Assembly (NCBI RefSeq): GCF_001614315.2
Contig: NZ_LVEG02000001.1
Coordinates: 248,001-312,000, forward strand
From: Halofilum ochraceum
GTDB taxonomy: Bacteria > Pseudomonadota > Gammaproteobacteria > XJ16 > Halofilaceae
Reading direction: 5' to 3'
DNA length: 64,000 nucleotides
Below are positions 39,455 through 42,079 of this stretch, piece after piece. How positions within the stretch are numbered: the stretch's first letter is position 1; the number at the start of each line of letters is the position of its first letter. The notes beneath the pieces are model-generated. The model searched no databases, had not been told where the DNA came from, and saw nothing but the letters and a program-made list of their open reading frames with translations. The translations under genes and the position numbers were made by a program.

Positions 39455-40908
39455 GCGGCGACACGCACCTGCAACCGACGCCGCCGGCCACCATGCGCCG
39501 GATCCGCCGGATCCATTTCGTGGGGATCGGCGGCGTGGGCATGGGCGGCATCGCCGAAGTGCTGCTCAATCTCGGCTACACGGTGAGCGGGTCGGATCGA
39601 CAGGAGAATGCCCTGATCGAGCGCCTGCGTGGCCTCGGTGCCGATATCCAGCTCGGGCACGATCCCGACCGGGTCGCGCTGGCGGATGTGGTGGTCGCCT
39701 CCGCCGCTATCCCGGCCGGCAATCCGGAACTGGTCGCCGCCCGCGACCACCGTATCCCGGTGATCCCGCGCGCCGAGATGCTCGCGGAGCTGATGCGATT
39801 CCGCCACGGCATCGCCGTCGCCGGTACGCACGGCAAGACCACGACGACGAGCCTGGTCGCGAGCCTGCTCGCCGAGGGCGGTCTCGATCCGACCTACGTG
39901 ATCGGTGGGCAGCTGAATCGCTCCGCGAGCAACGCGCGCCTGGGCACCGGCGATTATCTGGTGGCGGAGGCGGACGAGAGCGACGCGTCGTTCCTGTACC
40001 TCCAGCCCGTGATCGCGGTCGTCACCAATATCGATGCCGATCATCTCGAGACCTACGAGGGCGACTTCGGACGGCTCAGCGATACCTTCGCCGAGTTCCT
40101 GCACCACCTGCCGTTTTATGGCCTGGCCGTCGTCTGCAACGACGACGCCAACGTGCGCGCCCTGCTGCCGCGCATCACGCGCCCCGTGCTCAGTTACGGG
40201 ATCGAGACCGACGCCGATGTGATGGCGCGTAATGTGCGCGCCGATGGCCCGCGCACGCGGTTCGATGTGCGACTCCCCGAGGGGGACGCGATCGATGACA
40301 TCACCCTGAACCTGCCGGGTCGCCACAACGTGCACAACGCGCTTGCGGCGATCGCCGTCGCGTGGGAACTCGGCGTCACGCCGGAGGCGATCCGTTCCGG
40401 TCTGGCCGGTTTCGAGGGCATCGGGCGCCGTCTGCAGCGCAATGGCGAAGTCGCGCTCGATGGCGGCGAGGTCGTGCTGGTGGACGATTACGGTCACCAC
40501 CCGACGGAACTCGCGGCGACCTTCGAGGCCGTGCGCTCGAGCTGGCCGGAGCGTCGCCTGGTGGTGGCGTTCCAGCCCCATCGTTACAGCCGCACGCGGG
40601 ATCTGTTCGATGACTTCGCCCGCATCCTGGCTGCCGGCCCGGATGTGCTGCTGGTGGCCGAGGTCTATGCCGCGGGCGAGACCCCGATCGCCGGTGCGGA
40701 CGCGCGCTCGCTCTGCCGGGCGATCCGTGCCCGCGGCGGTGTCGATCCGGTCCTGGTCCCCGATATCCACGAACTGCCGGCCGCCCTGCGCGCCGTGATC
40801 GCCCCGGGCGATCTCGTGCTCACCCTTGGCGCCGGCAACATCGGCGCCGTGGCTCGCGAACTGCCGAAGAGCCTCGGTGTGGATGAGAAAGGAGGGAACC
40901 ACGAATGA
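39451..40908 (+). CDS. murC: UDP-MurNAc-L-alanine ligase MurC with repeat-encoded C-terminus
   Basis: Cytoplasmic ligase (485 residues) that starts the stem peptide. [19 protein letters not shown] at about residues 20-38, the P-loop [11 protein letters not shown] near 125-135 and [13 protein letters not shown] near 350 define MurC. The start overlaps murG (ATGA). The last residues GGNHE and the TGA come from the left arm of repeat element C, so the ancestral C-terminus was probably a little different; the conserved [16 protein letters not shown] block is intact. The usual tight junction to murB is lost. Confidence 0.95.
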
Positions 40909-41088
40909 ACACGAATGAACACGAATGGAATCAAAACCGTGCAAGTGCAGGTCCGCGGGCGTTCGGGGTCGGTATCCAGACGATCTCTGGTGTGAGTCGG
41001 GCCCGTCCGGCGTTCTACCGAAGCGACGTTTCTGGACCGCGGCCAGTGAATTCGCCTTTTTCATCATTCGTGTTCATTCGTGTTCATT
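40896..41088. repeat. Inverted-repeat element C inside the dcw cluster
   Basis: The left arm 40896-40927 is identical in sequence over 32 bp to the left arm of element B (GAACCACGAATGAAC...). The right arm 41065-41088 is a perfect 24-bp reverse complement of 40904-40927. The 137-bp centre is non-coding and differs from that of B. The final CGTGGTTC expected of a full right arm is missing at 41089 but a CGTGGTTCT occurs at 41154-41162, as if about 65 bases were inserted. The murC stop is inside the left arm. Confidence 0.85.
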
Positions 41089-41092
41089 GCTC

Positions 41093-41153
41093 GGCGCTTC
41101 CCTGCGCCTCGCCACTTCGTGGCGTGCGCTCCAATTCGCTCCCGGCGAATTGG
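41093..41153 (+). repeat. Three tandem perfect hairpins upstream of murB
   Basis: Stems in order: GGCGC/GCGCC (41093-41108), CGCCAC/GTGGCG (41110-41124) and CCAATTCG/CGAATTGG (41131-41153), with loops of 6, 3 and 7 bases. They end 14 bases before the murB ribosome site AAGGAG (41167-41172). In RNA they would form a row of stems between murC and murB; whether they are part of element C or a separate insert is open. Confidence 0.6.
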
Positions 41154-41179
41154 TCGTGGTTCTCAAAAGGAGTGCCCTC

Positions 41180-42079
41180 ATGAGCGCGGCCGAGCACACA
41201 ACGGTGCTGCGGGGCGAGTGGCGCGAGAACGAGCCGCTGGCGCGGTATACGTCCTGGCAGATCGGCGGTCCGGCTGATCGCCTGTATGTGCCCGCGGATG
41301 TCGACGATCTGGCCGCTGCGCTCGCGGGGCTGCCCGTGTCGGAGCCCGTGTTCTGGCTCGGGCTCGGGAGCAATCTCCTGATCCGTGATGGCGGTATCCG
41401 CGGGACGGTGATCTCGACGCGGCAGGCCCTCGGTGGGCTGGAAGCGCTGGGGCGTGGCCGGGTGTACGCGGGCGCCGGCGTGGCCTGTGCCAAGGCGGCA
41501 CGGTTCTGCACGCGCAACGACCTGGTCGGTGCCGAGTTCCTCGCGGGGATCCCGGGCACGATCGGCGGCGCGCTGGCGATGAATGCCGGCGCATGGGGTG
41601 GAGAGACCTGGCCGCATGTCGAGGTGGTCCAGACCGTCGACCGCCACGGCGTGCAGCGCGAGCGCCCGACCGAGGATTACCGGATCGGTTACCGCACGGT
41701 TGAAGGACCGGCCGATGAGTGGTTCACGGGCGTCCGGTTCGTGTTCGAGGAAGGCGATGGCGGCGCGGCGCGCGAGCGTATCCGGCGCCTGCTGGAAGAA
41801 CGCGGCCTGCGCCAGCCGACCGGCACGAAGAACTGCGGGTCGGTGTTCCGTAATCCGCCCGGCGATCACGCGGCGCGCCTGATCGAAGCCGCCGGCCTGA
41901 AGGGCACCAGCATCGGCGGTGCCGCGGTGTCGGAGAAACACGCGAATTTCATCCTCAATCGCGGCGACGCCCGGGCCGCGGACATCGAGACCTTGATCGA
42001 ACGGATTCAGGCGCAGGTGGAGCGCCGCTTCGGTATCCGTCTGCAGCGGGAAGTCGAGATCGTGGGAGAACCGGCATGA
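41180..42079 (+). CDS. murB: UDP-N-acetylenolpyruvoylglucosamine reductase MurB
   Basis: FAD enzyme (299 residues) that makes UDP-MurNAc using NADPH. Landmarks: NEPLARYTSWQIGGPADRL at about 15-33, LGLGSNLLIRDGGIRGTV near 60, AGIPGTIGGALAMNAGAWGG near 116 and NCGSVFRNPPGDHAARLIE near 217, the type I MurB pattern with the active Ser in GSVF. The ATG at 41180 has AAGGAG upstream and follows the repeat region; the longer frame reading through the repeat is rejected. Overlaps ddl by ATGA. Confidence 0.96.
   Translation: MSAAEHTTVLRGEWRENEPLARYTSWQIGGPADRLYVPADVDDLAAALAGLPVSEPVFWLGLGSNLLIRDGGIRGTVISTRQALGGLEALGRGRVYAGAGVACAKAARFCTRNDLVGAEFLAGIPGTIGGALAMNAGAWGGETWPHVEVVQTVDRHGVQRERPTEDYRIGYRTVEGPADEWFTGVRFVFEEGDGGAARERIRRLLEERGLRQPTGTKNCGSVFRNPPGDHAARLIEAAGLKGTSIGGAAVSEKHANFILNRGDARAADIETLIERIQAQVERRFGIRLQREVEIVGEPA

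Follow-up and report, generated by a model that had tools for sequence, protein, structure and literature searches.

The window, meaning the whole stretch of 64,000 nucleotides analysed here, contains the genes murC and murB, between which a repeat termed element C is situated. The arms of element C consist of CACGAATG(A/G)A units, and its right arm is interrupted by a 66-nt segment with three hairpins, hereafter unit E. The features of the locus are listed below, the score being that of a covariance model of E (R1, described below) and a vertical bar marking an insertion point.

40897-40928, + strand: left arm of element C (AACCACGAATGAACACGAATGAACACGAATGG), uninterrupted
40906-40908, + strand: murC stop codon, inside the left arm of element C
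41065-41087, + strand: inner portion of element C's right arm, which E interrupts; member of the arm repeat family
41088-41153, - strand: unit E, a 66-nt three-hairpin unit of the RtT-core type, probably mobile (R1 85.6 bits, E-value 3.9e-19); insertion point CGA|AT, its boundaries confirmed at orthologous arms, where excision is exact
41093-41108, - strand: hairpin D of E, 5 bp stem adjoining the 3' end GAGCA (fold and covariation)
41111-41123, - strand: hairpin C of E, 5 bp counted, GAA loop (fold and covariation)
41131-41153, - strand: hairpin A of E, 9 bp stem, CGGGA loop (RNA and DNA folds)
41154-41161, + strand: outer end of element C's right arm (TCGTGGTT), resuming directly 3' of E
41165-41172, + strand: murB ribosome site (AAAAGGAG)
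41180-42079, + strand: murB, open frame, named from the original prediction and the murC/murB order

On the + strand the site reads ...TTCAT, E and then TCGTGGTTCT; on the minus strand it reads AACCACGA, E and then ATGAACACGAATG. The three successive perfect stems originally predicted at 41089-41162 are present (+ strand 41093-41108, 41111-41123 and 41131-41153), and the predicted break of the right arm after CATT, followed by its resumption, is the junction given here, shifted by one ambiguous base (CATT/CGTGG split). None of 200 shuffled sequences was as stable as E when folded as RNA (z -4.72), and the same was true of the DNA fold (z -4.94, 0/200). Across the 64-kb window, the runner-up site scored 20.1 bits with R1, against 85.6 bits for the E copy.

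With element C and E in place, the stop of murC and the start of murB are 271 nt apart. In the congeners G001 (AAGGAGGGAACCACGAATGAGCG) and G002 (GGGGAGGTGCGATGAACG) murC and murB overlap at an ATGA, the murC stop overlapping the murB start, and E is absent from the murC/murB site in 2/2 of these other congeners. G001 carries GGAACCACGA immediately before the murB start; since this sequence has been kept, G001 may have lost element C via the ATGA direct repeat. Alternatively, the target of element C may have looked like its arm before element C arrived. E probably entered the right arm of element C, itself sited between murC and murB, and murB now has a AAAAGGAG ribosome site of its own. The separation of two genes that overlap in two congeners is a clearer consequence of element C than any control of murB, and control of murB by E is an unsupported reading. 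A 384-aa frame also extends without a stop from element C's left arm across E and into murB (window 40925-42079), the insert keeping the frame because E amounts to 22 codons; an N-terminally extended MurB is possible, although this frame is probably due to chance.

Distribution of unit E and its relation to RtT RNA

A search of the source genome (G000) with the triple-hairpin segment alone returned five more copies in element C arms, at 79-83% identity, giving six with the window copy. The segment is not a part of every element C copy, as only these six arm copies hold it. A two-unit arm motif matched 220 times in this genome and 0 times in the reversed control; since one arm yields one to three such matches, E is present in a small minority of arms. 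In 24 arm loci without E that were tested, no E was found, the one match being a chance-like 30 nt at 16 bits. The arm copies lie in two registers: the outermost arm unit houses the window copy and that at C11:30840, and the next unit houses the other four. Moreover, the window copy has a stem A sequence of its own, unlike the other five.

E also occurs outside arms in the same genome, at two loci (L041, L042) and in tRNA-linked copies. Sequence matches to the window segment were obtained in 9/56 related genomes, several of those copies lying outside arms, and R1 matched 20 sites in G000 at an E-value of 0.01 or better and 23/56 relatives. Farther afield, 70/369 genomes of the class contained R1 matches at 1e-5 or better, and 6/398 phylum-wide genomes did so at 1e-7 or better, all six belonging to the same class. 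The exact pattern was found in 58 stretches of the named collection, all of them titled as Gammaproteobacteria, gammaproteobacterial genera or orders, or unclassified Proteobacteria. No match to E was found in the plasmids searched, viral contigs gave 0 exact pattern matches, and the phages searched gave one partial match of 42 nt.

Several other nested arrangements were observed. In Thioalkalivibrio sulfidiphilus ALJ17 (L236, L239, L249), E lies within another palindromic repeat at GA|A, flanked by GGTTACTTTTCTTGGACAAGCAAGA and AAAAGTAACC; in G030 (L043-L052, L159-L162) it forms part of a larger repeat that has GAATCCTCATGTATTTCAATATACACTCCGG to one side of it. Additional arm families of the same pattern (AACCAAAAAATGAACAAAA, AACCACAAAATGGACACAA, AACCACAGATAAACACAGAT) are nested in or adjoin element C copies (L003 interior; L006 1641-1690; L018 interior). 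At one element C-like spot (L002 1244-1612 vs G001:C3:85560-86040, L300), the arms are CACGAATG in G000 and CACAGATG in G001, so both arms of this orthologous spot changed together between the two genomes; arm flavours seem to switch or replace one another.

The R1 alignment comprised 28 copies from G000, G001 and G030, picked outside tRNA contexts. In this alignment 96.8% of cells were paired and 10/19 pairs had changed on both sides, values somewhat favoured by the fact that the three-helix structure was drawn from the same 28 sequences; 0/500 shuffles matched this covariation, and slid versions reached at most 43.9% paired. Hairpin A alone had both-side changes at 7/9 pairs across the 28 copies. 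The alignment shows a predicted structure that is kept by compensatory changes.

RtT is a tRNA-linked RNA first found in E. coli, and its function is unsettled. Like the conserved core of RtT RNA (E. coli rttR of the tyrT operon), E consists of successive hairpins ending in GAGTAATCC; its A, C and D hairpins, its GAG(C/T)A end and its insertion at CGA|AT are all features of the RtT core. RtT RNA is located in a T-loop, that of a repeated tRNA 3' end, and E is likewise found in tRNA contexts. The two differ in that RtT is catalogued as a tRNA-operon RNA, whereas E also occurs without any tRNA context: the window copy, between murC and murB, occupies an arm of element C and not a repeated tRNA 3' end behind a tRNA gene. 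PMC4986893 describes RtT RNAs as released from transcripts of tyrT and other tRNA operons, with a link to the stringent response.

The Rfam model of RtT (RF00391) gave 43 matches at an E-value of 1 or better in 56 genomes, with four genomes, G000 among them, above the cut-off. The RtT of G000 lies behind tRNA-Tyr (C13:10623-10755) and scored 46.9 bits, against a gathering score of 45. R1 was built independently of RF00391 and without any RtT sequence. Its matches overlapped 11/43 of the RF00391 matches when the lists were compared by eye, and it still found tRNA-associated RtT copies that had played no part in its building. Conversely, RF00391 gave sub-threshold matches at E copies adjoining tRNA genes. 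The window copy had no match to RF00391, and no Rfam family reached threshold there; at relaxed thresholds the window gave only chance-level matches, to COG3610-DE and sucA-II, which were discarded. The Rfam searches that gave the sub-threshold RF00391 matches also returned many microRNA and other eukaryotic families below threshold, and these were discarded too. A wider model, R2, scored 17.9-18.6 bits (E-value 0.03-0.045) at each of the three repeats of E. coli rttR, and R1 scored 12.9-13.3 bits; the parts of rttR are ordered as in E (GGTTCGA...CCCGAAGGG...GCGC..GCGC..GAGTAATCC). On its own this sequence link from E. coli rttR to E is weak. Taken together, the comparisons indicate that E and RtT RNA are related.

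Two RtT/E units stand behind tRNA-Glu(ctc) in G000:C18 (L128) and one was seen in the corresponding G001:C11 stretch (L142), which is a tandem copy-number change between congeners. Another RtT/E unit was observed behind tmRNA, within a copy of the tmRNA 3' end (L083, G050:C182).

Insertion sites, occupied and empty

E was found in three loops of partial tRNA copies beside an intact tRNA: the T-loop (GGTTCGA|E|ATCC), the D-loop (GGTCGA|E|A, GGCTGA|E) and the anticodon loop (CTCGA|E|AA), as well as in the T-loop of a copied tmRNA. When the flanks were joined across the junction, they reproduced a neighbouring intact tRNA or tmRNA in 23/71 copies (score 20 or more), 16 of the 23 being gap-free, as in L056 with 67/67 nt. 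The joined flank of L137 was recognised by ARAGORN as a new tRNA-Ser. The remaining 48/71 copies had no nearby tRNA match at score 20 or more, and 33 or more of these 48 are near no tRNA on that strand.

Among 131 copies with distinct flanks (from 159 matches), which come mostly from few lineages and are not independent, the two bases before E were GA in 99/131 and CA in 17/131, and the next base was A in 105/131. The copies in T-loops were sense in 31/31 cases and antisense in 0, although the target TTCGAA is palindromic; a further row with the end ATTCGA has a sense context.

Occupied and empty versions of the same site were compared. By blast of the arm loci of G000 against the E loci of the congener, six orthologous arms were identified that carry E in G001 and none in G000; these pairs were found from the side lacking E and are not a census. 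Excision of exactly 66 nt led to alignment across the junction in 6/6 of them, with other gaps nearby in one pair (L017/L057). This difference by exactly one 66-base unit bears out the prediction of a second structured insert within the right arm of element C. In the single reverse case viewed (L002), G001 has a different element at that place.

Open frames that span E were tabulated for every copy; most of them arise by chance in GC-rich DNA, on one strand or the other, and were set aside, frames being retained only where paralogs without E exist. Thus, a G127 gene contains a 72-nt E in frame (L215, L216), and two G127 paralogs and one in G028 are without it. Another G127 paralog has E directly behind ATGA, in frame, with 115 upstream bases identical to those of a paralog lacking E. 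Since in both G127 cases the occupied and the empty copy do not share the base that follows the junction (GTCC vs ATCC; ATGAAATC vs GCGAAATC), a one-base change there is possible. Head-to-tail tandems of E were also found, with four units in L212 and two each in L213 and L214. In summary, these comparisons show apparent insertions that are precise, have no clear target duplication and favour a GA|A junction, and the in-frame G127 insertions with near-identical empty paralogs point to recent activity.

Nature of unit E

We consider it probable that E is a REP/RPE-like mobile palindrome, non-autonomous and ~66-76 nt long, which is common across Gammaproteobacteria and is called RtT RNA where it resides in tRNAs. 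The comparisons show what would be expected of such an element, namely a discrete unit, presence or absence at given sites, varied targets, tandems and compensatory changes. Presence and absence with exact boundaries, by which a non-autonomous mobile palindrome is recognised, was seen in 6/6 arms and in the G127 paralogs. Mobility is most likely the correct reading of these sequence comparisons. For the copies within arms, gene conversion between arms could mimic it. No account of E as a mobile element was found in the open-access papers searched, subscription papers being mostly outside that search.

E might instead be a normal part of some element C arms, spread by arm recombination or gene conversion and not by its own mobility. 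Arms are abundant, and all six orthologous differences between G000 and G001 are in arms, as such spreading would predict. It is nevertheless most improbable, being largely refuted by the copies outside arms in the source genome (L041, L042 and the tRNA-linked copies), and the two arm registers, the distinct stem A of the window copy, and the G127 copies in coding genes and tandem also speak against it. A second alternative is that the three hairpins form a leader RNA controlling murB translation, as the original prediction had raised, or transcript stability. The hairpins adjoin the murB ribosome site and fold strongly as RNA, the whole leader (40897-41200) folds far better than shuffles (z -6.0), and REP-like hairpins are able to affect transcripts according to PMC3733652. 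This role for E is, however, very unlikely, given that E recurs in many unrelated places (tRNA copies, other repeats and coding genes) and in both senses relative to genes, that its RtT-sense strand in the window is antisense to murB, that it is missing at murB in both congeners examined, and that no Rfam family was matched at threshold. Nor was any promoter- or terminator-like site found in the insert region (40850-41200).

E might also be a repeat of the REP family, moved by a RAYT transposase. By the account in PMC3733652, GTAG and CGTC REPs resemble E in being small palindromic repeats, mobile in theory and sometimes intragenic, and CGTC REPs have no known transposase, in which they again resemble E. 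The absence of target duplication and the presence of Y1_Tnp genes in 10/10 genomes searched would also suit a REP moved by a RAYT. We regard this origin as unlikely, though it keeps some plausibility. REPs measure 20-40 bp in the same source, whereas E has three hairpins in 66-76 nt, precise GA|A junctions and a use of tRNA loops. The GTAG tag is missing (GTAG or the complementary tetramer lies close to the left end in 1/131 and to the right end in 4/131), and CGTC occurs at the left end in 5/131 and the right end in 15/131 but not at the window copy, so that no consistent tag emerges and E does not qualify as a REP by either sequence. Furthermore, around the 20/32 Y1_Tnp matches examined (ten genomes), no significant R1 match lay within ~1.5 kb, the best score being 15.6 bits.

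Other known elements provide partial parallels. The Rickettsia palindromic elements, compared by description (PMC10969869), are likewise palindromic units in frame in protein genes, but they are ~150 bp long and alphaproteobacterial, whereas E is 66-76 nt and gammaproteobacterial. We file E as a variety of small mobile palindromes, RtT core included. Mini-elements derived from IS200/IS605 have subterminal hairpins and insert behind a short target with no duplication. E is like them in all three respects, by sequence only, and unlike them in having no linked tnpA.

As to how a mobile E might move, we tentatively suggest, at somewhat less than even chances for the two steps together, that it is recognised in the form of folded single-stranded DNA, which a putative trans-acting enzyme, HUH/Y1-like and comparable to those of REP and IS200/IS605 elements, joins behind a ..GA target. 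Joining of this kind would account for three features: the subterminal hairpins, a flank preference on one side only and the absence of target duplication. In a bolder version, which we think rather unlikely, an active mobile element invades its targets as RNA or as one transcribed strand, and RtT is its tRNA-resident form. E would then open tRNA loops (T, D and anticodon), the tmRNA T-loop and mRNA start codons, always in the sense orientation, a proposal with the same low probability. The sense bias in T-loops would reflect either strand- or RNA-specific insertion or the retention of sense copies that make RtT RNA; selection for RtT RNA could thus be an alternative source of the bias.

If the bolder version were true, bacteria would host a new kind of parasite, a mobile element of RNA or single-strand nature that shelters in tRNA loops. 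At the locus studied here, E within element C would constitute a second mobile layer between two essential cell-wall genes. With E as a probable mobile palindrome, the obscure RtT RNA would become one face of a widespread element with a defined junction, and its origin would become testable.
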